Shown piece after piece: positions 14,151 through 29,247 of a DNA stretch of 64,000 nt. The DNA is taken from NCBI RefSeq assembly GCF_002727185.1, contig NZ_NIZW01000008.1:186001-250000 (forward strand), read 5' to 3'. A program made the translations under genes and the position numbers. The number at the start of each line of letters is the position of its first letter. Within the stretch, counting starts at the first letter, position 1. This DNA comes from Rhodopirellula bahusiensis (GTDB lineage Bacteria > Planctomycetota > Planctomycetia > Pirellulales > Pirellulaceae). The notes beneath the pieces were generated by a model. That model saw only the letters and a list, made by a program, of their open reading frames with translations, had not been told where the DNA came from and did not search any database.

Positions 14151-14278
14151 CACGCCTCGGGATTTGCACCACGTTCTAGAGGAGGATTTCGATCGAGCGA
14201 CGATTGGCTTTTCGAGGAGATTTGTGCCACAAACAAACTCCTCATCTTCTTGTCAAGAATCAAAGCGTCGGAGCAGTA

Positions 14279-15043
14279 ATGACGTCTTGGAAGTATCGCT
14301 ACGTCGCGGCCAGCATCGACGGTTTCATTGAACAACTTGTTCGATACGTAAACACAGGTCACTACTTTTACGTCACTGGAATAATCCCGGACGGAAAGAA
14401 TCCTGAGTCGATTGATGCGAAACTGATTGAGCGCTACGGAATCGATTGCAAGCGTTGGGAGAGGTCACGCCGCAAACAAGCCGGCTTCGCGTCGGTTCAC
14501 TATCTTCGCTACGAGCGGCAGTTCATTCTCGTCGCAACTCATGGTCAACACGCGTTCTTCGAGTCTCATTCTGCCGATCAGTTGCGTGATTGTCGTCGCG
14601 TGGGAATTCAGTTCGGCGGGTACTCGGTTCGCCGCTCGGCCTGCGGTCGGACTGGCAAATGGCATACCCTGGTCAGGATCGACAAATGCACCGCAACAGC
14701 GCTACGTGCCCATCTGCTTGAACTGGCGTTGAGGCGGAGAAAAGATCAGCTCGAAGACGAGTTCCGCAGCGTTTGCTTCCAGCCTTACCGCCCGGTCCGA
14801 GAGCAATTGTTAACCATCCTGAGAGCAGTGAATCGAAAGCGCAAGGCGGCGGGTTTCGCGGCACTCGATTACAAGTGCATCCCGGTTCGTCGCAGGATTA
14901 CCAAGCCGTTTGGTCAAGAATTGGTGGTCGACGATGCGAACAACAGTCTCTATTCGGCAAGCACTTCGGAGAGCGGATCGACCACTTCCGGCAAGATACG
15001 ACCGACGTCGTCCGCGAGTGCCTGCAAGAGCGTGAAAGCCTGA
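14279..15043 (+). CDS. Unrecognised basic protein following the structured-RNA candidate
   Basis: 254 residues from ATG 14279 (MTSWKYRYVAAS), preceded by GGAG at good spacing. I recognise no family. The first 210 residues are rich in Arg/Lys and aromatics: YVNTGHYFYVTGIIPDGKNP, YLRYERQFILVATHGQHAFF, then a helical RRRKDQLEDEF..PYRPVREQLLTILRAVNRKRKAAGF. This suits a nucleic-acid-binding protein. The last 40 residues are Ser/Thr-rich low complexity and overlap an opposite-strand gene, suggesting the original C-terminus was lost and the frame now reads through foreign DNA. Its position right after the hairpin-rich stretch suggests RNA and protein work together. Confidence 0.65.
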   Translation: MTSWKYRYVAASIDGFIEQLVRYVNTGHYFYVTGIIPDGKNPESIDAKLIERYGIDCKRWERSRRKQAGFASVHYLRYERQFILVATHGQHAFFESHSADQLRDCRRVGIQFGGYSVRRSACGRTGKWHTLVRIDKCTATALRAHLLELALRRRKDQLEDEFRSVCFQPYRPVREQLLTILRAVNRKRKAAGFAALDYKCIPVRRRITKPFGQELVVDDANNSLYSASTSESGSTTSGKIRPTSSASACKSVKA

Positions 15044-15237
15044 GCATGGTTTCCGCTCGAAAGTTCCATCGAGATCACCGACGCGAACCGAACATCGAGC
15101 ACGGCCCAAAAGCAGACATCACCGGCTCGGTTCCGACGCTCGATGCGTCGGCGCAGGAACTTGATCGTGTGAGTGTCCTCGGCATGAAGGCACTCAAGAT
15201 TCCCAGAGTTGGCGATTCCTACGTAAGCGTTGCGCAT
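14950..15237 (-). CDS. Small hypothetical protein, antisense-overlapping
   Basis: 95 residues. Composition is protein-like: RRRIERRNRAGDVCFWAVLDVRF, then HAQAFTLLQALADDVGRILP. It overlaps the 3' end of the 14279-15043 gene by 94 bp in the opposite direction, and its frame looks better there than the plus-strand one. No ribosome-binding site stands out, and an in-frame stop lies right before the ATG, so it could also be a fragment of a larger decayed gene. Function unknown. Confidence 0.45.
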   Translation of the reverse strand: MRNAYVGIANSGNLECLHAEDTHTIKFLRRRIERRNRAGDVCFWAVLDVRFASVISMELSSGNHAQAFTLLQALADDVGRILPEVVDPLSEVLAE

Positions 15238-15591
15238 TCAATCCGTGTACCACGAATTGATTCCCAATGAAAAGCATCGTTTTCAATCGCTCACAATTAG
15301 CTCGGTGGTGACCGAGACGGAGTGAACCGGTGTTCCGTGTGTTCGCGATGGTTGCGTTCAAGGCGAAACTGTGGCAACGATAGCGACATGAATCAGTCAA
15401 GAAAAGGAATACCGATTGTCCAGACCACTCGTGCCTGGCGAGATAACTTGAGTGGATACGTGATGAAACCTGAATCAAGCAGGATGCGAATGTGCTTCAT
15501 GGTCACCGTCGGCGCGGTCATTGCCGCAGTGATCGACTATCGGCTGTTCGATCAATCAATTTTCAGCGCAGTCGCTGAGATGATCCGGTAG
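15238..15591. other. Intergenic region without convincing gene
   Basis: About 350 bp between the small minus gene and the recombinase stop at 15592. Plus-strand frames here have odd composition. It lies directly downstream of the recombinase and could contain its recombination site, but no clear inverted repeat was seen. Confidence 0.35.
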
Positions 15592-16563
15592 TCAGTAGCT
15601 CGCGAAGAAAGACGCACTCTTCTCTGGATTGTGGCCGCGACGGTCATACAGCTTAGTTGTCGATGGGTCCGCGTGTCCGACGTCCCGCTGGACATCTTCC
15701 AGATTCGCGCCATTGTCGAGCGCTGTCGTGATAAACGTCGCGCGCATCGAGTGGGCGGAGAATCCAGCCGGCAGTTTCAAGCCACGGCTGTACTTCTTCA
15801 GGATACGGTTGACGGCGTCCGGGTGTAACGCACGATTTAGAGGCCCACCCTTTCCGTTGCCACGAAACGGCCTAAACATCGCCGTCTCGGTCTGATTCTC
15901 GTGGCCTGTGGCCCGTAGGTAGTCTCGGATTCGGTTGGCCACCTGCGGATGGATGGCCACCGATTCACAAGCCCCACCTTTACGATTGACCCAAATCGAA
16001 TCCAGCCCGCGATTCTGATGAAGATCGCGGACTAGCAAACGGGCGATCTCAGCCCGCCGAAGACCGACCTGCAATCCGATGGCCAGAATCGCTCGGTCTC
16101 GCATTCCTTGGATTGTGTGCGGTGACGGAGCATCTAGCAATTGCCGAGCTTGACGCTGGGAAAATGCAAGCGTCTTTCCCTGGTTGCGGCTTACTCGCGG
16201 GCGCTCGACATCACGCACGGGATTGATCGGAACCACGCTATGTTGAACGAGGTGCTTGTAGAGACTTGATAGAGCGGCAAGCCGACGTCGAATCGTCGAA
16301 GCCTTCAATTGTTGGTACTCGCGCATGTGCGATTCCCAAGCGATGACGGGTCGGTGATCGACTCGGTGTAGCTGTTCGGATGCAGTGATGCCCGCGAATT
16401 TCATGAAATCTTCCACGTCTCGCCGGTAGGCAGTTCGGGTTCGCCGGCTCTTGAGTTTGGCGAGCCACACGCTTTCCTCCGGGATCGCCGCAAGCGAATC
16501 GAGCACGGACGCCGATACTTCGGCCTCGATAGTGGTAGGAAAACAATCAGGTTTCGTGGTCAC
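15592..16563 (-). CDS. Tyrosine recombinase (XerC/D-like)
   Basis: 323 residues. The N-terminal SAM-like DNA-binding domain (RTRTAYRRDVEDFMKF..STIRRRLAALSSLY) is followed by a complete catalytic domain: GLRRAEIARL supplies the first Arg, the beta-hairpin Lys sits in VNRKGG, HSMRAT gives H-x-x-R, and GHADPSTTKLYDRR gives the final His and the Tyr nucleophile. Length and layout are of Xer or phage-type resolvase-integrases. On a plasmid-like element it would resolve multimers or integrate cassettes. It is distinct from the tRNA-side integrase at 35996-37270. Confidence 0.92.
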   Translation of the reverse strand: MTTKPDCFPTTIEAEVSASVLDSLAAIPEESVWLAKLKSRRTRTAYRRDVEDFMKFAGITASEQLHRVDHRPVIAWESHMREYQQLKASTIRRRLAALSSLYKHLVQHSVVPINPVRDVERPRVSRNQGKTLAFSQRQARQLLDAPSPHTIQGMRDRAILAIGLQVGLRRAEIARLLVRDLHQNRGLDSIWVNRKGGACESVAIHPQVANRIRDYLRATGHENQTETAMFRPFRGNGKGGPLNRALHPDAVNRILKKYSRGLKLPAGFSAHSMRATFITTALDNGANLEDVQRDVGHADPSTTKLYDRRGHNPEKSASFFASY

Positions 16564-16648
16564 GGGCGATCTCGATCAATGCACGATAATCCGGTTTATC
16601 GCGTGCTTCACGTTCTCACAACTTAGACTTATTCGCAACGCATAAACT

Positions 16649-16675
16649 GGACCGGTCGCACGAGGCGACCGGTCC
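16649..16675 (-). terminator. Perfect 11-bp GGACCGGTCGC hairpin
   Basis: GGACCGGTCGC (16649-16659) pairs exactly with GCGACCGGTCC (16665-16675), 7 bp past the stop of the coiled-coil gene at 16683-17243. It is likely its terminator, but it lacks a strong T-run. Same core sequence as the hairpins at 7793 and 8984. Confidence 0.6.
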
Positions 16676-16682
16676 GTTTGGG

Positions 16683-17243
16683 CTACTTCTCGTTCAGTTC
16701 ATCCAACGGCTCGATTCCCATCGCTTCACGCTGCAAATCGGTGGGCTCTTGTTTCAACACTTCGGAAACCGTTTGCCAAAGTTGCTTGACTTGTTTCGGC
16801 GATGTTGCGAGCCAAACGGTGTCGAGCAATTCTTCCTTCTCTTCACGCAACTTCAGAATCCGCTTGCCAATTTCGTTTCCGGCTAGCAGCTCCGTTTCCA
16901 TCAAGGCAGCGCGTCGATTGACTGCCGCTTGAATTTCGTAGTCTCCAAACGAATGGACGTTCTTGGTAAGCGACTCAACGTCTACGCCTTGAATCTTCGC
17001 AAGCACCTGCTTGAGAATGTTACGACGTTCAATATCAAGAGTTTCCCGTTGCGTTCCGAGTGACTTGATTTCTTTCACCAAATGTGCAATGCCCAGCGAC
17101 TCCAACGCCTGGTCGTTCGCTTCTTTGCGAATCTTCTCCAGAAAGTTCGGGTTCTCTGCTGCGCAGATCGCCTCAATCGCTTGGTCAATCTTGCGAATGA
17201 TTCGTTCTTTCCAATGTTCCTTTTCTCTTACGGTAATGGCCAT
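16683..17243 (-). CDS. Coiled-coil hypothetical protein
   Basis: 186 residues, almost wholly helical and charged: WKERIIRKIDQAIEAI, IKSLGTQRETLDIERRNILKQVL, LKLREEKEELLDTVW. It should form a cytoplasmic coiled coil. No catalytic motif or membrane segment. I recognise no family; similar small coiled-coil proteins occur on plasmids. Single gene ending in the 16649 hairpin; its promoter lies in the long divergent region 17244-17930. Confidence 0.75.
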   Translation of the reverse strand: MAITVREKEHWKERIIRKIDQAIEAICAAENPNFLEKIRKEANDQALESLGIAHLVKEIKSLGTQRETLDIERRNILKQVLAKIQGVDVESLTKNVHSFGDYEIQAAVNRRAALMETELLAGNEIGKRILKLREEKEELLDTVWLATSPKQVKQLWQTVSEVLKQEPTDLQREAMGIEPLDELNEK

Positions 17244-17329
17244 GGTCTTGGCTCCTGTTCTTTCTACGTTTCAACATTACATCAGCCGTTCAAACTGGCT
17301 GAATCGAATCGGAAACCCAAATCAACAAC

Positions 17330-17392
17330 ATGCTTCCTGTTGAGTGGGCCTCCTACAGCCGTCCCTGGCGAGGCCCACGCAATAGGAAGCAT
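17330..17392. repeat. Near-perfect 23-bp hairpin in divergent intergenic region
   Basis: The arm 17330-17352 (starts ATGCTTCCTG, ends GTGGGCCTC) pairs with 17370-17392 (starts GAGGCCCAC, ends GGAAGCAT) with one mismatch and one wobble, around a 17-nt loop. Like the hairpin at 8633-8691 it lies between divergent genes and is followed by a G-rich non-coding stretch (17400-17560). The remainder of 17244-17930 shows no credible gene; it must contain the TerY-like promoter. Confidence 0.6.
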
Positions 17393-17930
17393 AGAAAAAG
17401 GACAGCAACACTTCGGAGCCGCAGCCGGCCGGTGGGTGTTAGGTGGACGCAGTGAGCGAGTGTCCAGGTGGAGAGCGAAGCGGACCTGGACTCTCGTGGA
17501 GCGGAGCGAACAGGTGGAGCCGGATGCGGCGGAGAAGGGTTGCTTCCTCAGCCGGGGATGACGCGAGCCTTTCGGCGAGCTTCAGTGGTGGGGTCGTGGG
17601 ATAAAGGTGGCCACCTCCGGCAACGACGTTTGAGTTGATCGGCTTACCGCCCCGGTTTTGGGTGGATACTCCATTTTTTTGGGCAAGATTCGTCGAACAA
17701 CAACCCCAGTGAGTGGTCTCGCCAATCTCAAGTTCCTCACAGCGTTCTACTGGCGAGTACAATCTGGTCATTTGGCCTAGTCGATTTGCAAACCGCAATG
17801 CGACTCCGACCAACGTTGCCAATCACATCGACACGAGCATCACAGCACTTGGTCCGGAGCAGCATCGTCTGCGAATCCGTTCCGCTCATGGACGCCACCG
17901 CATCCCTCGACAACTTCAAGAGGTATAGAG

Positions 17931-18782
17931 ATGTCACGAAATCGTTCTGACAAATACGATGAATCCGTCGATTCCTCGACCGTCGTACGGCCCGAAGACT
18001 TAGTCGAAATTGATTACGACTCGATCTTCCACGCGCCGATTCCGCTTCCAAAGTATGCAGGCCGTGTTGACCCGAACAAGCGGCAAGCCAGGGGCTTCAG
18101 TCCGCAGCTAGTGATACTCGCTGTCGACGATAGCCGTTCAATGTCGCATGACGGAAAGGCCGAGGCCGCAACGAACGCCGTCAAAGACATGCTTGCTGAA
18201 ATGGTGGTGCAATGCGACGGAAGTTCTGATTTTGATGTGGTGGTGTTTTCGTTCGGCACGTACGTCAACTACGACAAAGAAACTTTCGGTGTGCCCATCC
18301 TTGATTTCCCTGCCGACTCGATTGACTTTGCCGGGACGTCAGATCGCACGAAGTACTACCGAGCACTTTGGACGATTGAGGCCGTGCTACAGCACTACGA
18401 GAAGAACTATCTCCGCTTCCATGAGATGCCGAAGGCACACCCGGTTCCGCTTGTGATTTTTATGTCGGATGGATTCGACAAAGCGAAGAATCATGACCCT
18501 ATTCCTATCGCCGATCGCATCAAAACGATGAAACTGTCCATCGGCGCGCCGCCACTTATTCTAACGGTCGGAATAGAATTTGGCGGCGATCAGCCTGACG
18601 TCAACTTGTTGAAGCGTTTGGCGAGCATTGACGACGAATCAAACCGACCTGCGTACTTCGATGTATCGAATGCATCCATGTTGGCACAGTTCCTGTCGAA
18701 GGCAGCGAGTTCTGGATCATCTACTGCCGCTGAAATCTTCCGGGCCGTCGGCGATCTCGAGCGAAAACGACGGCCGCGTTAG
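17931..18782 (+). CDS. VWA-domain protein, TerY-like
   Basis: 283 residues. A von Willebrand factor A domain begins near residue 58: LVILAVDDSRSMS carries the MIDAS D66-x-S68-x-S70, and VIFMSDGFD later supplies the second MIDAS Asp. Such TerY-type VWA proteins bind a divalent metal and scaffold partners. It is the first gene of a VWA-PP2C-kinase cluster: PP2C starts 19 bp later and the kinase overlaps PP2C by 4 bp. The start ATG has AGAGG about 8 bp upstream. This triad is the TerY-P module of the Ter stress/defence literature; a TerY-P system has been reported as antiviral. Confidence 0.88.
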   Translation: MSRNRSDKYDESVDSSTVVRPEDLVEIDYDSIFHAPIPLPKYAGRVDPNKRQARGFSPQLVILAVDDSRSMSHDGKAEAATNAVKDMLAEMVVQCDGSSDFDVVVFSFGTYVNYDKETFGVPILDFPADSIDFAGTSDRTKYYRALWTIEAVLQHYEKNYLRFHEMPKAHPVPLVIFMSDGFDKAKNHDPIPIADRIKTMKLSIGAPPLILTVGIEFGGDQPDVNLLKRLASIDDESNRPAYFDVSNASMLAQFLSKAASSGSSTAAEIFRAVGDLERKRRPR

Positions 18783-18801
18783 GAAGGGCCTGCGAACTAA
18801 G

Positions 18802-19638
18802 ATGGAAAGTCCTCTACTTGAAAGTTTGTCTGACACGATTTCCGCCAACAGCGATGCTTTGGCCGAGCGTGGAACCGTTCTGGAATCACCCGGCTTTCTT
18901 GAAACGGGCAAGTCGGTGCTCTCAGTCGCGTCCGATCACGGAAACAAGGAAACCAATCGCGACTCTTTCCTCGCGTTCGTTCCCCTTGGCGACGGCGATA
19001 TCAAGTGGGCGGTCGCTATCGCGGATGGCGTCAGCGCATCGTTCGAGTCAAAGCTGGGCAGCCGACTAGCTTGCTACGCGTCCGTTGCTGCGCTCGTCCG
19101 GACCGAGGACCAGAAGCAACGCAGCCCAATCTCGGAGTGTGCTGAAACATTTCTCGCAATTGGCGAACGCATATTGGGTGACGCTCGCCTTTGTCGCCCA
19201 GATCAAGTGCCGGAAAGCCATTGGACTCGATTCGTTCAAGCAGGCCGACTCTTTCAGACGACGGTGATGATCGCTTGGCAGGCTGGCGATCAGATTTTCT
19301 TGGACGGTATCGGTGATGGTGGATTTGTTCGCGACTTTGATCGCGGATGCGTTCCGATGATGTATCTTCCATCAAGTTCGGGCCCAGTGACCTGCTTGGG
19401 AGCAATGACAAATGTTGTCGAGCCCCAATATCGCCACCAGTTCGCTTCAGCGAATCAGCTCTACTTATTCACCGATGGTGTGACCGGTTCGATTGAGCGC
19501 GATTGTTCGCAGGCGATCGACGTCATGCGTCGCTGTGTCGATCGCGACCGATGCACAGTGGCGACTGACTTACTCCAGTTTTCGATTCGATCTGGTGCTA
19601 GTGACGACAATCAGACGCTGGCAGTGATCTCGCCATGA
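18802..19638 (+). CDS. PP2C-type protein phosphatase
   Basis: 278 residues from ATG 18802. The metal-binding motifs of PPM/PP2C phosphatases are in order: SDHGNKETNRDSF near the start, AIADGVSAS (the DG motif), GDGGFV, LFTDGV, and the closing SDDNQTL. It would remove phosphate from Ser/Thr on targets of the neighbouring kinase or on the VWA protein. Middle gene of the TerY-P-like triad, its last bases overlap the kinase start (ATGA), implying coupled translation and balanced amounts. Confidence 0.9.
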   Translation: MESPLLESLSDTISANSDALAERGTVLESPGFLETGKSVLSVASDHGNKETNRDSFLAFVPLGDGDIKWAVAIADGVSASFESKLGSRLACYASVAALVRTEDQKQRSPISECAETFLAIGERILGDARLCRPDQVPESHWTRFVQAGRLFQTTVMIAWQAGDQIFLDGIGDGGFVRDFDRGCVPMMYLPSSSGPVTCLGAMTNVVEPQYRHQFASANQLYLFTDGVTGSIERDCSQAIDVMRRCVDRDRCTVATDLLQFSIRSGASDDNQTLAVISP

Positions 19639-21278
19639 CGGACTGGGTTGATGTAAGTAAACGGCAGCTCCAAGAGCTGTATGGCACAGTTTGGGAACTC
19701 GATGGTTGGCCTTTGTCTTTTGGCGAAGTCGCAGGCGGTGGGGAAGCGTCGGTTTGTGAAATGTCTGGCGAATCTGGCGAGACGGTTGCCTACCTTCGTT
19801 TCATTCAGCCTCACCGCACGTCACCAGCTCGCATTCATCGAACCGAATGGTTAATTGGTCAACATGTTCTTCAAGAGTCTGAACTATTCCGCGGGCTTCC
19901 TCATGCTTGGGTAACGACTCAGCAATACGGTCGTCCGAGCGGTTGCGATTTCGATTTCATCGCTACGTTTCATGACGCGGTGCCAGGCCAGACTTGGAGA
20001 AGTGTAAAGTGGGCTTTTCACGGGAGAGTAGATGCCGTTCACGGACTACCGACACCAATAAATAGAGTTCGAGCAGCCAAGAATCTAGTCGCGACGTTGG
20101 CGGCTTTTGAGGAGATTGGCACGAAAGGTTTCGTCCATGGCGATTTGACCGACCGCAATTTGATTTTGGATGCAAGGACCGGAAAGGTCAACTTGATCGA
20201 CTTCGACGCATTCGTTTACCAAACATCACCAACGCTAGATGACCCTCGCATCTCGATCGGTGATGGAGGCGTCACAGGAATGTCAGGTTATTGCCCTAAA
20301 GACCTGGAAGAATGTCTCGATGAGCATGCTTTTGCCTATTCCGATCGGCGCGCCCGCGACATGCTCCTTCTCGAACTACTTGCGTTTTCGGAAAACGATC
20401 CCCCCGCGGATGCCCCGGGAAGTTGGCAACAACGCAATACAACGTTGACCTCCGTGAAACCGTTGGCCGAACAACTTGGACTACCGCACCTGCTAGATAC
20501 AAGTGTTTTCGATTGTCCCGAATCAGATCGCCCAACGAGTTGCCAACTCGCGCGGGCTTTGGGCCTCGCCATCCCCAAAATCGCGGAGCCCCACGCTAAC
20601 GTCGCTGATCCTTTGCAAGATCGCCCAGTAGCGATGCCGAATTTTGAAACGAATCAGTATCCAGACGGCAGCGTCTCCGAACCGATCCTTCCGCGAGAAA
20701 AGAGGAAAAAGCGGAGCCGGAGCAACGCGTCGCCTCGACAGCCGCAGCCCGACCCCTGGGAGTACATTTCATCATTTGCCCGCGAAAACGGCCCGGCGGT
20801 TGTACAACACCTACCAGCTTTTGCTGGAAGGTTCGCTTTGTGCTTCATGCCACTCTTGTTCGCGTACCATTTCCTGTTCGTCGGATTTCTTCTAGCGTTC
20901 CAGCCAATGGAGCCGGTCTATGAATCACTGCACCACGGTCCACTCAACGCGATGTTGTACGCGACCACAATCATCGCAAGCCTTGTCGCATCCGCTCGGC
21001 TGATGACGAGTGATTCGCAGTTCCAACGACTCACTAGCGACCCAATCTTGTCGAGCGTCTTGCTTGGCGCGAAGGGCGGTGCGATTGTGATGCACCTCTT
21101 TCTTTTCGCAGCGACGTTGTTCGCCTTCGTCTTGGTGGCAGCCGTGAGATTGTTTCATGATGGAGACGCGGTGCCATCGACCGTACCCGAGGCCATTGGC
21201 TGGCCGCTGTCGCTGGTCCTACTGATCAGCACGTTTCTCGGCACCGCGCGTTTCGTGAAATGGTGGCTATGGCGATGA
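19635..21278 (+). CDS. Membrane-anchored Ser/Thr kinase-like protein
   Basis: 547 residues. The kinase domain covers about 25-320: a glycine-rich loop FGEVAGGGEAS, catalytic HGDLTDRN (Asp170, Asn175), and a metal-binding LIDFD (DFD rather than DFG). The beta-3 Lys appears replaced (VAYLRF), as in divergent TerY-P kinases. A basic linker (KRKKRSRS) leads to four likely transmembrane helices between about 395 and 545. So the catalytic part is cytoplasmic and the protein sits in the inner membrane. Its 4-bp overlap with PP2C marks the functional triad. Convergent with, and overlapping by 12 bp, the OB-like gene at 21267. Confidence 0.85.
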   Translation: MTDWVDVSKRQLQELYGTVWELDGWPLSFGEVAGGGEASVCEMSGESGETVAYLRFIQPHRTSPARIHRTEWLIGQHVLQESELFRGLPHAWVTTQQYGRPSGCDFDFIATFHDAVPGQTWRSVKWAFHGRVDAVHGLPTPINRVRAAKNLVATLAAFEEIGTKGFVHGDLTDRNLILDARTGKVNLIDFDAFVYQTSPTLDDPRISIGDGGVTGMSGYCPKDLEECLDEHAFAYSDRRARDMLLLELLAFSENDPPADAPGSWQQRNTTLTSVKPLAEQLGLPHLLDTSVFDCPESDRPTSCQLARALGLAIPKIAEPHANVADPLQDRPVAMPNFETNQYPDGSVSEPILPREKRKKRSRSNASPRQPQPDPWEYISSFARENGPAVVQHLPAFAGRFALCFMPLLFAYHFLFVGFLLAFQPMEPVYESLHHGPLNAMLYATTIIASLVASARLMTSDSQFQRLTSDPILSSVLLGAKGGAIVMHLFLFAATLFAFVLVAAVRLFHDGDAVPSTVPEAIGWPLSLVLLISTFLGTARFVKWWLWR

Positions 21279-21560
21279 GCCATTTTGCCTGGCGTGTTCC
21301 CAGTCGGCTTGCCGTGCCGCGTTGACCCAGTCGTCGGCCATGATTGCCAGCCGGGCCGCGACCAGCAGGTCTCGCTCGTCCAGCCGACTGGTGGTGCGAT
21401 AGTTTTCACCATCCTTCCAAGTTCGCGTGATCTCTGTGGAATATCGCGTTCCCTTTTCCGTTTGATTTGGCCAGATGGTCAATGTCAAGCGACCATGACG
21501 TTGCGTCATTGCCGGGCGGTTGGTTTCGTCTTGTACTTGGTGTGCCTCTTGCGTTTGCAT
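21267..21560 (-). CDS. Small OB-like protein, divergent paralogue without SSB tip
   Basis: 97 residues. TLTIWPNQTEKGTRYSTEITRTWKDGENYRTTSRLDERDLL aligns with the core of the 3009-3341 and 34721-34960 proteins, but the end is a different helical tail (ADWEHARQNG), with no acidic tip. A GAGG lies 8 bp before the ATG. Probably a single-stranded nucleic-acid binding or replication-associated protein, by inference from its paralogue. Its last 12 bp overlap the end of the membrane-kinase gene in opposite orientation. The next 250 bp (21561-21809) have no gene. Confidence 0.7.
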   Translation of the reverse strand: MQTQEAHQVQDETNRPAMTQRHGRLTLTIWPNQTEKGTRYSTEITRTWKDGENYRTTSRLDERDLLVAARLAIMADDWVNAARQADWEHARQNGSSP

Positions 21561-21809
21561 TACTGTTACCTCGCTGATGGCGATGCAGTTGACAATGCTG
21601 ACTCAATAGCACGGTTTTGGATCGATTGTCCACTGATTGCGTCAGCAATCCAACTTTGATTTGTTCAGCGTTTTCGTGGTAAATCTGACAGCCAAGTCAT
21701 GAGGGGACCGAGCAGAAGGGACAAACATGCCGGAGTCTCGCGAATCGACGTTTGCGACACGCCGGTGATGGTCAACGGTTTTCAAAGAGGTTTTCAATAT
21801 GAGGCGACT

Positions 21810-22733
21810 ATGTCTAACACTTCTCGTCTGAACGATGCAGCTCTCCTTTGTTCCATGCTGTTTCGAGCCGGGGAAATAATCGAGGTCCGACCGATCGAAA
21901 TTTGGACCGATGGCGATTCAGGTAAACGGAAGTCGCGAGTGTTGCGAAGCGAGCGTAGGTGGCTTGCAAAAGACGGATTCGTTGAACAGCTTCGCTATCT
22001 GGATAGGCTGAACACGATGCACAACGCCAACATCTTTTTTGGCGTGAACCCAAGGGTTGCCCACGGTCGTGGTCGCAAAACGGATGTCGTAAAGACTCGG
22101 TGCCTTTGGGCAGACATGGACAACGTAACGTCGGAAGTAGCAAAATGGCGTTGCGAAGAGACTGGGGTTCCTCACCCGAGCATTATCGTCGATAGCGGAA
22201 ACGGCAATCACCTCTACTGGCTACTGGATCAGACGCTCGATATTTCGTTGCCGTTCGATCGGGACTTGCTTGAAGCGAGACTTAGACGGCTTTACAAGCA
22301 ACTCGGTTGTGACGCGACGTGTGACGCAAACCGACTACTGCGGCTTCCAGGGTTCTTGAATGTAAAGAACGCTCGCAATGGCGCTCAGCCCACTCGATGC
22401 TCGTTGCGAGTCTGCAATCCGGATTGTCGCTTTGCTATCGAATCGTTTCCCCCACATGTTAAACGACAGTCGCCCCAATCGTTGCAGGACGGGAGAGTAC
22501 GGAGGACGTTCGCAAATCAACCGCGAACAACTGATCCGCTGACTCAGCGTCTAGCAGTAACCACGGACGATCGAAGCAAGCGGGACTTCGCGATAGTATG
22601 CTCGCTCTTGCGCGCTGGGTACGGCAAGGAAGAGATTCGGCAAGCGGTCGCATCTCAGAGCAAATTTGCGGATCGCGGCGATTCCTACTTTGAGACGACG
22701 TTTCGCAATGCATTGATTGCTATTCAGTCGTAG
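21810..22733 (+). CDS. RepB-like DNA primase domain protein
   Basis: 307 residues from ATG 21810 (MSNTSRLND), which has GAGG at ideal distance; a frame extends upstream but is poor. The sequence follows the RepB/archaeo-eukaryotic-type plasmid primase family (PF16793): a NIFFGVNPR strand, CLWADMDN (the catalytic acidic pair), PSIIVDSGNGNHLYWLL (the conserved His), and CDANRLLRLPGFLN. The C-terminal 90 residues are helical (DFAIVCSLLRAGYGKEEIRQAV), as in primase-associated domains. It would make primers for element replication. Confidence 0.88.
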   Translation: MSNTSRLNDAALLCSMLFRAGEIIEVRPIEIWTDGDSGKRKSRVLRSERRWLAKDGFVEQLRYLDRLNTMHNANIFFGVNPRVAHGRGRKTDVVKTRCLWADMDNVTSEVAKWRCEETGVPHPSIIVDSGNGNHLYWLLDQTLDISLPFDRDLLEARLRRLYKQLGCDATCDANRLLRLPGFLNVKNARNGAQPTRCSLRVCNPDCRFAIESFPPHVKRQSPQSLQDGRVRRTFANQPRTTDPLTQRLAVTTDDRSKRDFAIVCSLLRAGYGKEEIRQAVASQSKFADRGDSYFETTFRNALIAIQS

Positions 22734-22786
22734 ATGCCAGTGTCGCGGTGCGGGCTGGTTTTTCAACCATCATCGGCTCGCCATTC

Positions 22787-24148
22787 CTACGGTGCCAGCA
22801 TGTTCTTGTCTACCATCAATTCGCCGTACTTTTGCAGCAAATCTTGGGCTCGCTCGATCGTGGGATGTTTCCGCTGCCAATCCCCAGCACCCCCGACGTA
22901 ACGTGGGAACGCACCATGTTCCCGATCGTTGTAGCGGTTTCCGGTAGTCAAATAGTAGAGATTCTGCCTCGATTCAACTGTATCCTCCAGTAGTCCGGCG
23001 GACCTCAACTTCGAGAGCGATACCGGACCATATGTTGCATCCGATCGCCAACCCCGCGATCCGGGCTGAGTGCGACCATGGCTGATGAACGGTTTTAGCA
23101 GTGAGGTGATCTGTCCAAGGTCGCGATTAAATTCCGACTCCAGTACGGCCAAGCGTGCCCTTCGCTGTCGCTCTGCTCCCTCAGCTTCCGCCATTCGCTT
23201 CAGCTTGGCTTGCGTCTCCGCCAACTCAGCAGTTTGGCTGTCGAGCACTGCCAAATCAATCTCTCGCCTGATGCGAGCTTGTTCCATCTCCTTCGCTGTA
23301 ATTCGATCTACCATCTCCGCGTCGGCCGCTCGTTTGGCATCTGCGACTGTTTCAATTCGTGCAGCGATTCGCCGTTGCCTGAATTGTTCGATAGCGTCGG
23401 CGAGTGTTTGATCTGCAGGTGCAAGACTTAAAGCCAGTCGACCAATGGCATTGGCATCTTCCCGCCTCGAAGCGACAAGTGCTAGTGCTGTTTCCACCTC
23501 CTCCGTCAAAGCTCCGATCGCTTCATCAAAATCACGCGACGGCTCGTAGGAGGCATCGCTCGCAAGGGAATCCACAACTTTGGAAAGCGCGATGTATCGA
23601 TCGCGAAAGCTGTTCAGTTCGGATTCCGTCGGCATGTCGCGATCGAGCACTGCGGCGAACCGTTCGACAAGTGCTTCATCCGACGCAATTTGGTGCCCCA
23701 TTTCGCTACCAATCATTTCGGGCGAATACTTGACCCAATTGTTGTGTTCAAGTAGCAGTAGGTCGAGCGATTCAAATAGTTTGTCGCGTCGAAGGACAAT
23801 CCGCATGTTTGACGAACTGCGAATCGCCAAGTGTTCCTCTTGCCGCACCTTCGTCGTATCCGAAACAGGTTGCTTCCTCGCTGCGACAACTCCGTCAGGC
23901 GTTGCTCGTTCCACATAAGTTTCATCGGATGGATCGTGGGACGCAGATGCCGCGCTTGCATCACGACTGGGCGGCGATGTCGTTTCCAGCATCAAGCGGA
24001 TGGCAAAGGCCCCGATCCCCATAACGGTCAATGCAGCCACACCCGCAAACACAGCTCGCGGACCGTCGACTGGAGGGGATTCTTTTTCCGCGTCGAGACT
24101 CTTGATGTCGTGCTGATCGTCGTCAGCCGGAGGAAAATGCTCAGCCAC
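22787..24148 (-). CDS. Membrane-anchored long coiled-coil protein
   Basis: 453 residues. A charged N-terminus of about 30 residues precedes one transmembrane helix (AVFAGVAALTVMGIGAFAIRL), then a long extracytoplasmic part. Residues about 215-350 form an Ala/Glu/Arg-rich coiled coil (DAEMVDRITAKEMEQARIRREI). The C-terminal 90 residues are a separate domain rich in aromatics (SRQNLYYLTTGNRYNDREHG). I know no family; the shape recalls sensors or scaffolds. It is divergent from a Ser/Thr kinase gene with only 87 bp between, so the two are probably co-regulated and may form a signalling pair in the TerY-P-like island. Confidence 0.75.
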   Translation of the reverse strand: MAEHFPPADDDQHDIKSLDAEKESPPVDGPRAVFAGVAALTVMGIGAFAIRLMLETTSPPSRDASAASASHDPSDETYVERATPDGVVAARKQPVSDTTKVRQEEHLAIRSSSNMRIVLRRDKLFESLDLLLLEHNNWVKYSPEMIGSEMGHQIASDEALVERFAAVLDRDMPTESELNSFRDRYIALSKVVDSLASDASYEPSRDFDEAIGALTEEVETALALVASRREDANAIGRLALSLAPADQTLADAIEQFRQRRIAARIETVADAKRAADAEMVDRITAKEMEQARIRREIDLAVLDSQTAELAETQAKLKRMAEAEGAERQRRARLAVLESEFNRDLGQITSLLKPFISHGRTQPGSRGWRSDATYGPVSLSKLRSAGLLEDTVESRQNLYYLTTGNRYNDREHGAFPRYVGGAGDWQRKHPTIERAQDLLQKYGELMVDKNMLAP

Positions 24149-24235
24149 GGGGCGCGGACACTCGCAAAGAAGGGAAAATGGAATCGGGATTAAGATAGGG
24201 ATATTCTAGACGAACCCGATTCCTGTTCCAAATCC

Positions 24236-25249
24236 TTGATTCCCCCGATAAGAGTCTTGCGTCGTCCGCCCGAAACCATTCGTTGTCGAAACCGCAGCTA
24301 TGACGTTCAAGACACGGTTCGCTTGCGTGGTCGCCACTACTGGGTGACCGCCTCTTTGGGCAATCGAGGGCGACGCAAGATGCAGGTTTTCGACCCTGCG
24401 TCACACGACTTACGTGTCATTCACGTTCTGCCAGATTCGGCACACACCAAGCAGCAGCTTCGAGTATTGCGCCGCGCGAACCGATTCCAGGGTTTTACGC
24501 AAATCATCGACGTCGATAAACGCGACGACTCCACATGGGTTCTCACCGACTGGATTCACGGAGAATCACTGGCCCAGCATTTGGGGCACGCCCGCACTCA
24601 ACGCAACCACTGGCCCACGGCTCACATGAGCTGGACGCTTTTCGCCGGCTTTGCACACAGCTTGTGTCAGTTCCATGATTTCGCGAATTGCGTCCACGGC
24701 GACATCAAGCCAGCGAACTTAGTCTTGCAATCTCAGCCCAAGCGACTGCGAGCAATTGACTTTGGAAGCGCATGGGACGAAACGATCGCGAAACGTCGTG
24801 CAACTGGCGACGGGAACACGGTCGGATATGCCGCCCCAGAATTACAATCGAATCAGCAGGTCACCGTTCGATCGGATCAGTTTTCGTTGTCGATCGTTCT
24901 CTTCGAAATGCTGACGGGTGAACTGCCGTTTCAAGGAATGGGCGGTAGAGCGGGATGGGCCGAATACAAAAAAGGATTCGAGCGTGCTTACGAAGCACCG
25001 AGCGCGAAGTCGAATCAACGCCGACAACTTCCCAGGCGAGCGTGGCGAGTCATTGACGATGTGGTGCGAGAAGGCCTATCGCTCGATCCGGATGGTCGGT
25101 TCGCAACATCAAACGCATGGCGCGACGCCATCGACCATGTCACGCAGGTACTGCGACAAGCCGAATCCGCTTCGCGTTTTGAGTCGACGATTGCAGACGT
25201 TGCTGATAGGTGCGTCGTTTTTTTCGAACGCAAAGAACGCCCATCATGA
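24236..25249 (+). CDS. Ser/Thr protein kinase
   Basis: 337 residues, with a TTG start at 24236 (TTG 24257 is an alternative; no ATG precedes the N-lobe). The kinase is well conserved in the C-lobe: HGDIKPAN (Asp156), AIDFGSA (DFG at about 175-177) and YAAPEL, followed by a DQFSLSIVLFEMLTGELPF helix. In the N-lobe the beta-3 Lys is not obvious (VIHVLP), so ATP anchoring may be altered. No membrane segment. Second kinase of the island, divergent from the membrane coiled-coil gene and convergent with the Cas4-like gene (6-bp overlap). Confidence 0.88.
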   Translation: MIPPIRVLRRPPETIRCRNRSYDVQDTVRLRGRHYWVTASLGNRGRRKMQVFDPASHDLRVIHVLPDSAHTKQQLRVLRRANRFQGFTQIIDVDKRDDSTWVLTDWIHGESLAQHLGHARTQRNHWPTAHMSWTLFAGFAHSLCQFHDFANCVHGDIKPANLVLQSQPKRLRAIDFGSAWDETIAKRRATGDGNTVGYAAPELQSNQQVTVRSDQFSLSIVLFEMLTGELPFQGMGGRAGWAEYKKGFERAYEAPSAKSNQRRQLPRRAWRVIDDVVREGLSLDPDGRFATSNAWRDAIDHVTQVLRQAESASRFESTIADVADRCVVFFERKERPS

Positions 25250-26251
25250 CGGCTCAGCAAGGTCTGCAAACTTACGCGTCGGTGGTGTGTGCCAGCGAAA
25301 TCGATCACCACACTTCGAGTGCCAATACTTACCGGCGACCTTTACGGTTAACGGCGGCAGCGGCTGTCCTTCCGAATAGGTTTCCGACCGATTCATGACG
25401 TAGCGGTGCGGCAATCCAAAGAAGCACTTATCACAGAGCGATTGCCGAGTCGGAGGCTCTGGTGCCCGGCGACTATCAATGAGCTGCCTAAAGTCCGCGA
25501 TCACGGTTTTCAACTCTGCTTGACCCAAAGCACTGGCCGGAACGGCTTTCGCCTTAAGACTATTTGGCAAGAGTACCAAGCCATATGGCGTTTCGTAGTG
25601 TGTATTGACTTCAATCAGATAGCGATACGCAGCAAGCCTCAAGATGTGATTGGTGTGAATGGTCTCGGAGTCACCTCGCATCCGCAGAACTGGAATCCAG
25701 TGGTCGCCACGCACTAGCACAACCCATGGCTTGCCGTGGAGGTTCAACAGTTCTTCATCGTCGAACTTAGGCGGGCTTCGCGGCTGATATCCCGCTGCCC
25801 GCAGTTCCCACCAATGAATCGACACCGGCTCTTCGCTCGTGAATTCCGGCTCGCGTGGCTTGGTTCCCAACGCCTCACGCCGGCGGCGTACAAGCATCAC
25901 GATCAGGTATAGAACACCAAGACTTGCCAGAAAGGCTGAGCCGAAAACCCACCAACCGAAGCCTACCGCACCAGGCTTTGCGAGCAGCGTCGCCAACAAC
26001 ACCCAGCCAAGAGCGACCCCCGTCGCGACGATAACACCGACGAGCACGATGGTCACGACCGAAATCCAGCGTTCAATCTCCGCCAAGTTGTACTTAGGCA
26101 GATAGCTCAACCGAATTTTCGGCCAGTCTTCGCCAGCTTCATCAAAAAGAGCTTCATGCGCCAACAGACCGGCACGGGGACAGTATTGATACTGTGACAA
26201 CTCGTGGACGCTCAGTGACGGACTCGATGCGGCATATTGTGTCTGGTTCAA
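25244..26251 (-). CDS. Cas4-like PD-(D/E)XK protein with two inserted membrane helices
   Basis: 335 residues. SVHELSQYQYCPRAGLL at 14-30 is the N-terminal Cas4 signature with the first iron-sulfur cysteine (Cys24). Two transmembrane helices (about 62-90 and 98-121) are inserted right after it. The core resumes with WVVLVRGDHWIPVLRM (Asp183), and AAYRYLIE..YGLVLLPN resembles the Q-AY helix. Cys273, Cys276 (CDKC) and Cys314 could complete an Fe-S cluster. The catalytic E-x-K appears eroded (PVLRMRG), so activity is uncertain. It overlaps the HTH-pseudokinase gene by 4 bp (ATGA), so they form an operon. Confidence 0.7.
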   Translation of the reverse strand: MNQTQYAASSPSLSVHELSQYQYCPRAGLLAHEALFDEAGEDWPKIRLSYLPKYNLAEIERWISVVTIVLVGVIVATGVALGWVLLATLLAKPGAVGFGWWVFGSAFLASLGVLYLIVMLVRRRREALGTKPREPEFTSEEPVSIHWWELRAAGYQPRSPPKFDDEELLNLHGKPWVVLVRGDHWIPVLRMRGDSETIHTNHILRLAAYRYLIEVNTHYETPYGLVLLPNSLKAKAVPASALGQAELKTVIADFRQLIDSRRAPEPPTRQSLCDKCFFGLPHRYVMNRSETYSEGQPLPPLTVKVAGKYWHSKCGDRFRWHTPPTRKFADLAEPS

Positions 26252-27345
26252 CGGTCCATTGTCTCCCGTAGCGAAACAACCGTTTCAAGGATGGCCGTCA
26301 TTTGCTGTGGGCGTTTCGTTCGCTGAAGTTGCGTGCAAGAGGCAAGTAGTTCAACCCAATCTTTCGATCCTGTCCAAAACTTGAGTTTGCTCAATTCCAC
26401 ACCGCGTTCGGGTAGGCTTCCAAGCGTTGATTGGGTCATGATTCGTCCCCAGGAATACACATCAACAGTACCATCGATCTCGCCTGCGCCAACTTCTGGG
26501 GCGCGATACGCACTCTCGGGCCACTCGTCCGCAGAAACAGTCGGATAGTCTTCGGTCAGCTTTGCCAACTCAAAATCGGTGAGGACAAGACCATTGTCGT
26601 CGTCCTTGAGCACGATCGAATTTGGGCTGAGCTCTCGCAAAATGACGTCCGCTTTGTGCGCGGCTACGATCGCTTCAGCAAGCTGCTTGCCGAAGTCATT
26701 CAGGTTGGCTGAGTCCAGAGGACCGTGGCCCAGCCGATCGTCCAAGTCCAGGCCATCGATCCATTGGTCAATCACCCACCAAGTGTCGCGGTCTTGATCT
26801 GGAAACGTCGAATAGCATGTCGGGAAATGTGAATTTGGTGCGAGCCGTTCGCAAACTGAGAGGTGTCGCGACATAGCGTGCCTCGTTCGTTCCTTGTCCT
26901 CATCGCTTCGCTCATGAAATTCGTAACGCTTCCCGCGACCACGGCGGTTCGGCTCAAATGCATGATTCATCGCAAAGACGCGATACTGCAAACCGTTGGC
27001 GATTGTGACTACCGGAGATAGTGCCTTTCCGACAATCCATTCCCCCGTGCCTAGCTCAGCTTTCGAGCCAGAGGCGATTGCTTTCGGCGTGTATTCGTCA
27101 ACATCGACGATGTCTAGCATCGCCACATCAAACACATCGGCAACGAATCGCGCCGTCGATATTTGCACCGATTCGTTCCGAAAGACCTTTTTTGCTGTTC
27201 GCATCTGCGTTTCGGTGTGCTTGCAGTAGTCGCGAAGGGTCCATCCGCGACCGAGCAATAGCCGTTTCATGACGTGCGGGTTGAGTCGCACAGTGCCGTC
27301 GAGTGTCGGCATCGAATCGTCAGAATTCTGATCTCGTATCACCAT
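26248..27345 (-). CDS. HTH domain fused to pseudokinase
   Basis: 365 residues from ATG 27345, chosen for a strong GGAGGG site 8 bp upstream; an upstream ATG at 27432 is less likely. Residues about 20-75 (RLLLGRGWTLRDYCKHTETQMRTAKKVF) form an XRE-type helix-turn-helix. The rest is a kinase-like domain with degraded catalytic residues: LRELSPNSI in place of HRD-x-KP-x-N (Glu238 for Asp), DFE for DFG, but a retained YRAPEV. It should bind rather than transfer phosphate, perhaps as a regulator sensing the other kinases and acting on a promoter. Transcribed with the Cas4-like gene. Confidence 0.78.
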   Translation of the reverse strand: MVIRDQNSDDSMPTLDGTVRLNPHVMKRLLLGRGWTLRDYCKHTETQMRTAKKVFRNESVQISTARFVADVFDVAMLDIVDVDEYTPKAIASGSKAELGTGEWIVGKALSPVVTIANGLQYRVFAMNHAFEPNRRGRGKRYEFHERSDEDKERTRHAMSRHLSVCERLAPNSHFPTCYSTFPDQDRDTWWVIDQWIDGLDLDDRLGHGPLDSANLNDFGKQLAEAIVAAHKADVILRELSPNSIVLKDDDNGLVLTDFELAKLTEDYPTVSADEWPESAYRAPEVGAGEIDGTVDVYSWGRIMTQSTLGSLPERGVELSKLKFWTGSKDWVELLASCTQLQRTKRPQQMTAILETVVSLRETMDR

Positions 27346-27420
27346 CGATGGTCCCTCCGGCTGCGTGTCGAGAATGCACCCATCTAACACTCCTGAGCGC
27401 AAACGAGTTTTGGCAAGATT

Positions 27421-27849
27421 ATGGCCACTCATTCCACCCAGTGTACCCCGGAGCGACCCGTGACTGTGCTAGAAACCTTCCGCGACGTGTTGAAACAACG
27501 GATGCAAGCCTTCCTTTGGCGGAGCGTGGCGTCTGATGTTGAAGCCGACACGATTCTTCAAGACGTGGCAAATCTTGAGCGACTCGAGCAGCAAGCAAAA
27601 CGTTACGAGGCGGAGGGCAACCCTAATCTTGCGGCGCTCCTTCGCCAACGGGCCGCGATGATGAGTATGGATGCACCAGGTGGCTCGATCACGCAAGCAC
27701 TGGAATCAGTCGGCGGTGCGGCCTCATCGACCGGCTTGCTGGCGGATGGGCGCGACGACAAGGAAAAGCCCGAAGAAACGGCGGTCAAGCCGGCGACGCG
27801 TCGACGCAGCCGAAAGCGTCCGTCTGATCAAGCATCCTGCGGTGAGTAA
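27421..27849 (+). CDS. Small helical protein before the replication-relaxation genes
   Basis: 142 residues (ATG 27421), or 129 from GTG 27460, which has a better GGAG site. The N-terminal half is helical (TVLETFRDVLKQRMQAFLW..ILQDVANLERLEQQAKRYEAEG) and the C-terminus is basic and disordered (TRRRSRKRPS), suited to DNA contact. No family recognised. It begins a plus-strand run with the two replication-relaxation-like genes and the coupling protein, so it may belong to the transfer/replication machinery. Divergent from the HTH-pseudokinase gene. Confidence 0.65.
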   Translation: MATHSTQCTPERPVTVLETFRDVLKQRMQAFLWRSVASDVEADTILQDVANLERLEQQAKRYEAEGNPNLAALLRQRAAMMSMDAPGGSITQALESVGGAASSTGLLADGRDDKEKPEETAVKPATRRRSRKRPSDQASCGE

Positions 27850-27873
27850 GTGGCAGTGTGCCGGAAACCCGAA

Positions 27874-28476
27874 ATGGACTTGCTCTCAGTACTGACAAGC
27901 AAGCTTCGCGTTGCATCACAACAGCAATTGTCGATGGCTGATGCAGGTTGGAATGAGCGAATGGTCCGAATGTTGGTGAGCCGAAGGCTGCTTGCCTCAG
28001 CAAGATTCACCATCGCCGTCATCGATGCCGGCGACGAACCATTCGTGCAATGGCAGCCAGGTCAATCAGCACCCGACAGCGGCTCCATCGCGTACTTGGG
28101 CAGACGCCGTTTGAGCCAATCACAACGAAAGAGTCAGACAGTTGTGTGGGCGACCGAACGAGCGGCGGCCTTGGTCGGAGGCATCGGAGGGAAGCTGCGC
28201 CAACCTTGGCAAGTATCTCACGACTTGGGCGTCGCGTCGATCTATTTCCACCTTCGACGCACTGCTGAGCACGCGGCGAGTCAGTGGATTAGCGAAGATA
28301 TTTACCGCCGCGATATCGCAAGAACGACGACTGAAAAAATCGCCGACGCGTTCTTGATGTCTGAGTCTGAGAAACCTCAGTTGGCAATCGAACTGGTCGG
28401 AGACTATTCGGCCGCTCGTCTACGTGACTTTCATCAGTTTTGGTCGAATCGGGGAGTCGCTTACGAGTGGCGGTAG
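27874..28476 (+). CDS. Replication-relaxation-like protein A
   Basis: About 200 residues from ATG 27874 (GTG 27850 is an alternative). It resembles Replic_Relax (PF13814) plasmid proteins: an N-terminal winged-helix-like part (LRVASQQQLSMADAGWNERMVRMLVSRRLL), then W-Q-P-G-Q, and a HDLGVASIYFHLR segment typical of the family before a nuclease-like fold core (AIELVGDYSAARLRDFHQFW). Members are found near plasmid origins and transfer genes and are thought to act in relaxation or mobilization. The next gene follows after 2 bp. Confidence 0.72.
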   Translation: MDLLSVLTSKLRVASQQQLSMADAGWNERMVRMLVSRRLLASARFTIAVIDAGDEPFVQWQPGQSAPDSGSIAYLGRRRLSQSQRKSQTVVWATERAAALVGGIGGKLRQPWQVSHDLGVASIYFHLRRTAEHAASQWISEDIYRRDIARTTTEKIADAFLMSESEKPQLAIELVGDYSAARLRDFHQFWSNRGVAYEWR

Positions 28477-28478
28477 AC

Positions 28479-29243
28479 ATGACCAAGAACAAATCCTCGA
28501 TCCGACTGACGCGACGTGACTACGGAATACTCCGGGATGCAGCGAAGTATGGCATGGTTGTACCCGAGCTGTTGCAGGCTCAGCGTTTCGCCGGGCAGAA
28601 GCCCGCAGCGGTCCAGTCAACATTGCGAAGGCTTTACGGACACCCTCCCGAGTATCGGTTTCTCCGTCCCGAGAAGCTCGACGCGAAACGAGTGTACTAC
28701 CGACTCACTTCCCGAGGTTGTCGGCAGATCGGAGTGTCGCGTGATGCGTCGCGGAAGCTCGGAATGCAAGCGGTCGCCGAACGGTATGCGACGACTTGGT
28801 TCATCTCGGCTGATTTGGCCGGTGGACGATCTTTGCTTGACCCCAAGGAATTTCCCGAGCAGTTTCCGAACATTCGTGAGCGACTGCCCAAGAAGCGGTT
28901 TCATACAGAGCAGGTCGGACAGACCGTTCGACTTGGCTACTTCGTCACCGACCTCAGAACTGACGTTCGTCGACTCGTGCGTCAGAGCTCCACCGTCATG
29001 CGGAGGTTTATAGAACGTCGATGGTTCGATGACTACCTGCGCCACGATCGGTTCGTCTTCACCGTCTTGACGTTCAACGAATCTAAAGCCGTCGAAATCG
29101 ACACGAAGTTGCGGCTGACGTTTCAACAGCAATTGTCGCGGCCGCTCCAGTCGATCGGGCTACAACCGGCTGGTACGGAAAGCATCGCCGTGCGAGTCCT
29201 CGTCGTCCCCGGTCTCGACACATTGATTCCCGAACCAAGATAG
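28479..29243 (+). CDS. Replication-relaxation-like protein B
   Basis: 254 residues from ATG 28479 (an in-frame alternative start lies at 28440). It opens with a winged-helix-like LTRRDYGILRDAAKYGMVVPELLQAQRF..QSTLRRLY, as in MarR-like/replication-relaxation N-termini, and has a second part with YATTWFISADL and a basic RRLVRQSSTVMRRFIERRWF stretch. No relaxase His-triad or Tyr motif was recognised. It sits 2 bp after protein A and 4 bp before the coupling protein, so the three are one transcript. Confidence 0.68.
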   Translation: MTKNKSSIRLTRRDYGILRDAAKYGMVVPELLQAQRFAGQKPAAVQSTLRRLYGHPPEYRFLRPEKLDAKRVYYRLTSRGCRQIGVSRDASRKLGMQAVAERYATTWFISADLAGGRSLLDPKEFPEQFPNIRERLPKKRFHTEQVGQTVRLGYFVTDLRTDVRRLVRQSSTVMRRFIERRWFDDYLRHDRFVFTVLTFNESKAVEIDTKLRLTFQQQLSRPLQSIGLQPAGTESIAVRVLVVPGLDTLIPEPR

Positions 29244-29247
29244 GACC

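Follow-up and report, generated by a model that had tools for sequence, protein, structure and literature searches.

A pseudokinase, Cas4-like protein and kinase module beside a transfer operon, and a separate VWA-PP2C-kinase triad, on a mobile element of Rhodopirellula bahusiensis

Introduction

In the planctomycete Rhodopirellula bahusiensis (RefSeq assembly GCF_002727185.1), a stretch of 64,000 nucleotides of contig NZ_NIZW01000008.1 (positions 186,001 to 250,000 of the forward strand), termed the window in the following, carries a mobile element with a group of seven neighboring genes. Three of them, the triad, encode a von Willebrand factor A (VWA) protein, a PP2C phosphatase and a kinase-like protein (K1). 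The others encode a membrane coiled-coil protein (CC), a second kinase-like protein (K2), a Cas4-like membrane protein (Cas4L) and a protein joining a helix-turn-helix (HTH) domain to a pseudokinase (HTHpk). Next to HTHpk an operon begins that includes a gene for a type IV coupling protein (T4CP). A preliminary description made from the letters of the window regarded the seven genes as one enlarged phospho-signaling island of the TerY-P type, tied to antiviral defense and located on an integrated plasmid. Do these genes constitute a single system, and what would the partners of the triad do on such an element?

Results and Discussion

A conserved module travels with the transfer operon

In a search of 397 genomes, Cas4L gave 37 matches in 27 genomes, and the VWA protein of the triad was matched in seven, the weak matches in three of these (G144, G635 and G686; E-values 6e-9 to 3e-7) being left out of the triads. 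Within the order, ten of 196 genomes contained Cas4L and four the triad VWA protein. A scan for HTHpk in named genomes returned 37 loci, part of them already seen. By their labels, hosts of HTHpk are mostly Planctomycetota, with a few labeled simply as 'bacterium' and others as Nealsonbacteria or Alphaproteobacteria (metagenome-assembled genomes), which are perhaps mis-binned. After removal of 11 duplicates, linkage was studied for 53 HTHpk genes in 52 loci, the difference arising because locus L068 carries HTHpk in two frames; the near-duplicates L023/L056, L059/L060 and L043/L048 were kept, and the sister species G843 stands outside the counts. Flanks are often short in this set, 17 members having full flanks of 8 kb. 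As a census these loci are incomplete, since wide stretches do not cover about a dozen places with Cas4L (in G785, G771, G722, G726, G628, G828, G767, contig C364 of G707, contig C447 of G824 and at three places of G769).

In the neighborhoods read out, HTHpk, Cas4L and K2 travel together and the triad is usually located elsewhere. Cas4L lies within 3 kb of HTHpk in 51 of the 53 cases, the exceptions being L055, where the contig ends, and L040, where Lamassu genes intervene and the distance is 4.2 kb. Where full 8-kb flanks are available, K2 and T4CP are each found in 16 of 17 cases and two further proteins of the operon, o27850 and o27421, in 17 and 15, respectively, as compared with six for CC, which occurs within 12 kb of HTHpk in 22 of all 53. 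A triad VWA gene is present within that distance in two of the 53, namely the window and L035, and in one of the 17 with full flanks. HTHpk, Cas4L and K2, with CC more loosely attached, are a conserved backbone module of the element, and triad and module are two separate units. As the triad lies near the module in only these two of 53 cases, the conservation of the flanking genes beside the triad that the preliminary description had expected mostly, though not wholly, fails: the arrangement recurs in L035 and in G843.

HTHpk is divergent from o27421, the first gene of the operon, in 29 of the 52 loci. T4CP is identified as a coupling protein by matches above cut-off to PF12696, PF02534 and PF10412 and shows eight hydrophobic segments in a hydropathy scan. 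Replic_Relax is matched in 19 of 36 members of o27850 (E ≤ 0.1, best 9.9e-8), the copy in the window being without a score; a MarR-like winged helix was seen in a second look at the structural model of o27850, which had no match in the PDB at E ≤ 0.001. The protein occurs in 19 of the 196 genomes of the order.

Table 1. Features of the window, those of the two units and the transfer operon first.
Feature	Position	Strand	Profile match (E-value) or basis
VWA protein, triad gene 1	17931..18782	+	VWA_2 0.0038, below curated cut-off; MIDAS (metal ion-dependent adhesion site) DxSxS kept
PP2C phosphatase, triad gene 2	18802..19638	+	PP2C_2 PF13672 6.7e-14
K1, kinase-like with C-terminal transmembrane segments, triad gene 3	19635..21278	+	APH 1.8e-4, below curated cut-off
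CC, membrane coiled-coil protein, conserved C-terminal part	22787..24148	-	
K2, Ser/Thr kinase-like	24236..25249	+	Pkinase 1.2e-22
Cas4L, Cas4 fold with inserted transmembrane hairpin	25244..26251	-	Cas_Cas4 7.1e-6
HTHpk, XRE-type HTH and pseudokinase	26248..27432 (open reading frame; likely start 27345 or 27312)	-	Pkinase 2.2e-13
Divergent intergenic region, HTHpk/transfer operon	27346..27420		
o27421, small conserved protein, first gene of operon	27421..27849	+	
o27850, Replic_Relax-type, winged helix and second domain	27850..28476	+	
o28440, partner of o27850, no assigned family	28440..29243	+	
T4CP (VirD4/TraD-like) ATPase	29248..32013	+	PF12696 1.1e-9, PF02534 1.6e-8
Mobile element (integrated plasmid or like an integrative and conjugative element, ICE)	2574..37500, approximate ends		Homology to sister species G843
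ParA	10193..10960	-	PF13614 4e-36
RepA-like replication protein	11151..12422	+	PF10134 0.011, weak
Second tyrosine recombinase	15592..16563	-	PF00589 5.3e-20
RepB-type DNA primase	21699..22733	+	PF16793 8.8e-7, PF22448 4.1e-6
MT-A70-type DNA methyltransferase of element	33434..34525	+	PF05063 3.4e-6
Tyrosine integrase adjoining tRNA-Met	35996..37375	-	PF00589 3.7e-13
tRNA-Met	37420-37494		

Proteins of the module

The gene for HTHpk overlaps that for Cas4L at 26248-26251, and the K2 gene converges on the Cas4L gene with six shared bases. The residue counts given below cover rows above the length and score limits. The HTH of HTHpk is of the XRE type by profile (best E-value 2.4e-5), and its kinase domain departs from active kinases at two places: the catalytic Asp is absent from all 51 rows (47 Glu, two Gly, one Asn, one Gln), as is the Gly of the DFG motif (50 Glu, one Asp). 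K2, on the other hand, retains His and Asp of HxD, the Asn, and Asp and Gly of DFG in 40 of 40 rows, one of which is a generic kinase. The beta-3 Lys is present in none of 39 K2 members, the register of this strand relative to solved kinases being uncertain by three residues, and the single Lys in this column stems from the unrelated generic kinase, a 1235-residue protein encoded close to the module in L053 (16557-20264), the kinase domain of which is of the ordinary type. The preliminary description had considered this Lys as apparently lacking in both kinases, which applies to K2 and to the window's copy of K1, and not to most of the K1 family (see below).

The predicted structure of Cas4L (pLDDT 88.4) has Cas4 and Dna2 as its best structural matches and thus a RecB-like Cas4 fold. 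The PD-(D/E)xK nuclease site is not retained: the catalytic Asp, the position of which was set by counting from a shared GK where the aligner opened a gap, is found in none of 48 rows and the Glu in none of the 47 rows with a letter there. Four true planctomycete Cas4 proteins used for comparison (L213, L214, L219 and L220, those readable among the ten loci L211-L220) carry GKAD...P(V/I)EYKR at this place. Of four conserved cysteines, C24 is kept in 48 of 48 rows and C273, C276 and C314 in 46; the last is placed differently from that of the true Cas4s, and together the four would probably form an Fe-S or Zn site. Transmembrane segments are predicted in 43 of 48 Cas4L and 19 of 22 CC proteins. 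In the middle of CC (window 23001-23500) identity to G843 falls to 85%, as opposed to about 99% in most of the surroundings, a patch that may be due to local replacement or mark a fast-changing region.

The triad, resembling TerY-P

The genes of the triad lie where they had been described, with 19 bp between VWA and PP2C and an ATGA overlap of the PP2C stop with the K1 start. Pfam supports the calls for PP2C, K2, the HTH-pseudokinase and the Cas4-like protein, and those for VWA and K1 only below the curated cut-offs. Seven triads were compared, from the window and loci L032-L035, L139 and L140, three of them (L033, L034 and L140) being cut by contig ends. Gene order is identical in all seven. 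The MIDAS residues D66, S68 and S70 together with D180 are kept in six of six VWA proteins (L034 is cut), and the metal ligands of PP2C (DG, GDGG, TDG and DN) in all seven. K1 features HGD..N throughout, and DFD instead of DFG, noted earlier for the window, likewise holds for all seven; at the beta-3 position Lys is found in five and Arg in two, including the window. C-terminal transmembrane segments of K1 are predicted by hydropathy in five of the seven. Compared with G843, K1 differs by one nucleotide in 547 codons, and VWA and PP2C by six nucleotides and one amino acid each.

The surroundings of the triads vary. In L035 CC and K2 lie on either side of the triad, and HTHpk and Cas4L are found upstream; in L032 it is located just upstream of o27850-o28440-T4CP with two small open reading frames intervening and the module absent; in L139 and L140 it resides on an apparent chromosome. 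In the latter two a conserved protein of 585-588 residues without assigned family directly adjoins it (L139:1143-2909, 588 residues; L140:4199-5956, 585 residues). As a phylum-wide probe for triads the K1 alignment proved unsuitable, matching 273 of 392 genomes mostly weakly, as expected of ordinary kinases; of five read among the best foreign matches (L144-L148), four are kinases without VWA or PP2C. In the fifth, L147, whose genome belongs to a different class, positions 1899-4895 contain a K1-like kinase (47 bits) with a weak match to VWA (20 bits) ahead of it, perhaps a distant triad.

The triad is TerY-P-like and can be regarded as a variant of that type. Like the described systems it combines genes for a VWA protein, PP2C and a Ser/Thr kinase-like protein in the same order, translationally coupled, with MIDAS and PP2C ligands kept. 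It differs by DFD in K1, by weak or absent matches to PADLOC component models (no family for VWA; PP2C, E-value 0.024; STK_OB, E-value 0.0044, the latter two models being, we assume, TerY-P parts) and by the end of K1, which in five of seven cases consists of transmembrane segments; a Pfam scan of the window's copy of K1 gave no match to a zinc ribbon or OB fold. TerY-P kinases as described so far end in one or the other (PMC11090510); TerY-P is also treated in PMC4978471. The likeliest role of the triad is defense against phages, by analogy to TerY-P systems that protect other hosts against T7-like phages or Autographiviridae (PMC7699616, PMC10889362).

Defense genes inside and beside the module

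In four loci, genes matching models of several known defense types lie within the module or adjoin it. In L040, HTHpk and Cas4L are separated by LmuA (182.8 bits) and LmuB (364 bits) of Lamassu at 11237-15008, all four genes being co-oriented. L141, in which no HTHpk was found, contains at 3267-5240 an ATPase gene matching AbiLi (333 bits) and AriA (134 bits) and a gene for a 209-residue protein; Cas4L, here shortened, directly precedes them, and T4CP follows. L027 represents a further copy of the element, likewise from the genome of the window (3233-8925 of L027, which is G000 contig C8:55001-75000), beside an IS66 transposase; its K2 and Cas4L genes enclose those for an E2-E1-JAB fusion and for a protein that matches LmuA more weakly (50 bits). 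In L020, CARF-STK-AAA, CARF and DruA are encoded between CC and Cas4L; DruA alone is not a Druantia system. The triad of the window and L035 fits this picture of defense cargo. WD40-repeat proteins also occur in the cargo zone, recognized by Pfam in L023 (13953-16238) and L059 (15376-16857) and by position and length in L056 (15479-17764).

Possible functions of the two units

From what is observed, namely which genes are present, how they are conserved and linked to the transfer operon, which active sites are lost and which folds occur, that of Cas4 included, we tentatively arrive at a reading that we hold with somewhat less than even confidence: the region would be that part of a planctomycete mobile element which holds control genes and cargo, the module controlling the transfer operon and the triad being separate, most likely anti-phage, cargo. 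HTHpk would bind the divergent region and repress or gate the operon o27421-Replic_Relax-o28440-T4CP. Cas4L, as a membrane-held, nuclease-dead Cas4, might sense DNA ends, redox, envelope state or mating contact, and K2 could pass the signal on through phosphorylation, with HTHpk or a partner as substrate. The triad, where present, may also alter the state of HTHpk by phosphorylation and would itself be a TerY-P-like reversible phospho-switch, most likely anti-phage. A more far-reaching version appears doubtful to us, namely that the dead membrane Cas4 informs the Lys-less K2 and the pseudokinase HTHpk, as a DNA-binding protein, of the state of DNA or membrane, and that these jointly switch a minimal Replic_Relax/T4CP operon, VirB4 being undetected, together with immune cargo inside the module; this kind of control would be new and would serve movement or self-guarding.

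A number of points limit or weigh against the control-and-cargo reading. DNA binding by HTHpk, the signal, phosphorylation and defense are deduced from sequence and model analysis. The palindrome CTGACT-N6-AGTCAG (up to two mismatches, spacer 4-6) occurs in seven of the 29 divergent regions, compared with a mean of 1.2 and a maximum of 4 in 50 draws of random windows from the same loci, and was derived from two of its own seven loci and is absent from the window; no palindrome common to all divergent regions was found, and scans for sigma-70 promoters and terminators performed no better than on shuffled sequences. The T4CP tree, in which the module label needs four changes as against a shuffled mean of 11.8, speaks for the reading, with rows mostly gathered for holding the module and some rows 'without module' being short contigs. 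In 12 stretches, one a 6.5-kb contig, a Replic_Relax/T4CP operon occurs on its own, so that the module is dispensable for such operons. As PF03135 (VirB4; other VirB4-like families were not tried) has no member in the genome and PF03432 relaxases none on this element, the only one of the genome being located on contig C48, conjugation by the element is unproven. Ratios of dN/dS between window and G843 are high for K2 (0.63, nine differences) and HTHpk (0.49, 13 differences), and constraint on them is not demonstrable because of the small number of changes between near-identical copies. The Lys of the Cas4 motif is retained as Lys in 14 of 48 Cas4L rows. Finally, seven of ten neighboring proteins (from L023, L154 twice, L025, L059, L028 and L036) had no PADLOC match, three did (L040 twice and L141), and no cargo rate can be derived since all ten were chosen by eye.

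The single enlarged TerY-P-type defense circuit originally proposed, uniting the triad with K2, HTH-pseudokinase, Cas4L and CC, draws on L035, where all seven genes share a strand, on G843, where the whole set is kept in the same place, and on the presence of Cas4L in three of the four genomes with a strong triad VWA match versus 27 of 397 overall (one-sided Fisher p 0.001, or 0.012 without the window's genome; G145 and G166, with triad VWA and no Cas4L, stand outside the count). The absence of the triad from the vicinity of the module in 51 of 53 cases, many on short stretches, and in 16 of 17 with full 8-kb flanks, together with module-free triads in L032-L034, L139 and L140 (the cut loci named above among them), renders it quite improbable. 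What stands of the proposal is that the triad resembles TerY-P and that the element family carries defense genes; the partners belong to a separate module. The most serious alternative, in our estimate unlikely, considers the module itself a defense system, with a membrane sensor-kinase core and exchangeable effectors (triad, Lamassu, E2-E1-JAB or CARF-STK). It would account for the defense genes between or beside module genes in L040, L141, L027 and L020, mostly oriented as the module gene upstream, and for kinase matches to the PADLOC models MAD6 and PD-T4-6, which reflect general kinase similarity. However, gaps of more than 1 kb among HTHpk, Cas4L and K2 are found in only five loci (L027, L035, L040, L057 and L153), the PADLOC matches of Cas4L are to Cas4-type models (two are Cas1 models, presumably Cas4/Cas1 fusions) and those of CC nil, and the constant neighbor of the module is the transfer operon.

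That neighbor could instead point to a role of the module within DNA transfer or entry exclusion, with Cas4L and CC in contact with the mating envelope or T4CP and assembly tuned by the kinase pair. In line with it are the nearness of T4CP (no more than 8 kb away in 16 of 17 cases), CC directly downstream of T4CP in several loci (e.g., L019, L020, L022, L024, L047 and L070), the predominance of predicted membrane segments in Cas4L and CC, and the divergence of the CC middle in copies that are otherwise near-identical, which would suit a specificity region. CC, however, is present in a minority of loci (22 of 53 and 6 of 17, as given above), transfer operons exist without the module, and the HTH on the pseudokinase points to regulation; we regard direct participation as improbable to a similar degree as the single enlarged circuit. 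If, as we tentatively prefer, the module controls transfer or immune cargo, eukaryote-type kinase/pseudokinase signaling would run a bacterial mobile element, and a Cas4 fold would have been given a new use as a membrane component without nuclease function. Natural variants in this respect are available among the 52 loci, L035 uniting both units and L032 having a triad near the operon without the module, and the element family carries several kinds of defense (Lamassu, AbiL/PARIS-like, E2-E1-JAB and CARF) inside or beside the module.

Comparison with known systems

XRE-type repressors are known from mobile elements. With these HTHpk has in common that a gene for an HTH regulator adjoins a transfer operon or defense genes, as is also the case for defense-island regulators such as the WYL family and RptR, the subjects of PMC9122601 and PMC12255303; it differs by the fusion of HTH and pseudokinase and by the overlap with a gene for a dead membrane Cas4. 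From Cas4, Cas4 of mobile genetic elements and Dna2 nucleases, Cas4L is set apart by the lack of catalytic Asp and Glu in all rows compared, by a transmembrane hairpin inserted after the helices of the first Cys and by a relocated fourth Cys (HCxCGDRF). For the nucleocapsid of TTV1, a Cas4-like protein in inactivated form has been reported (PMC5704561). Likeness to MADS comprises the MAD6 matches of the kinases, a VirD4/HerA-type ATPase matching mad8 (4.9e-11) and the MT-A70 methylase on the element; these are superfamily-level matches, with 76 and 75 bits for the kinases versus an NCBI MAD6 cut-off of 460. Among the papers listed in literature searches none describes an HTHpk-Cas4L-K2-CC module, and PADLOC gave no matching system built of its parts. 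No relatives of Cas4L were found in IMG/VR with the single pattern scanned. PLSDB plasmids gave no match to Cas4L or K1, and 13 of its records matched HTHpk over about a quarter of its length, with proteins annotated as kinases.

Extent of the element

The sister species G843 carries the same, near-identical element at the same tRNA-Met, and the element genes compared are gap-free and without internal stop. Homology begins at about 2574; identity amounts to 90-99% across most of 2.6-17 kb, about 99% across most of 17.0-37.5 kb and 76-90% to the right of the tRNA, where it drops from 99.4% to 83.6% in the next 500 bases. By this profile the element ends on the right at the tRNA and on the left near 2574, and recent exchange is suggested. 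The earlier assignment to an integrated plasmid largely holds in view of ParA, the weakly matched RepA-like protein (homologues of which are found near the module in related elements elsewhere), RepB primase, T4CP and two tyrosine integrases, one of them at tRNA-Met as in ICEs. A direct repeat marking the ends was not detected, nor was an att repeat of at least 14 bases for tRNA-Met within 80 kb leftward or in the window. On contigs C25 and C14, which gave weak PF13814 matches, none of the element's families is present. Small related proteins are encoded at 21267-21560 (-), 34703-34960 (+) and 3009-3416 (-) of the window, and their relatives recur on many such elements.

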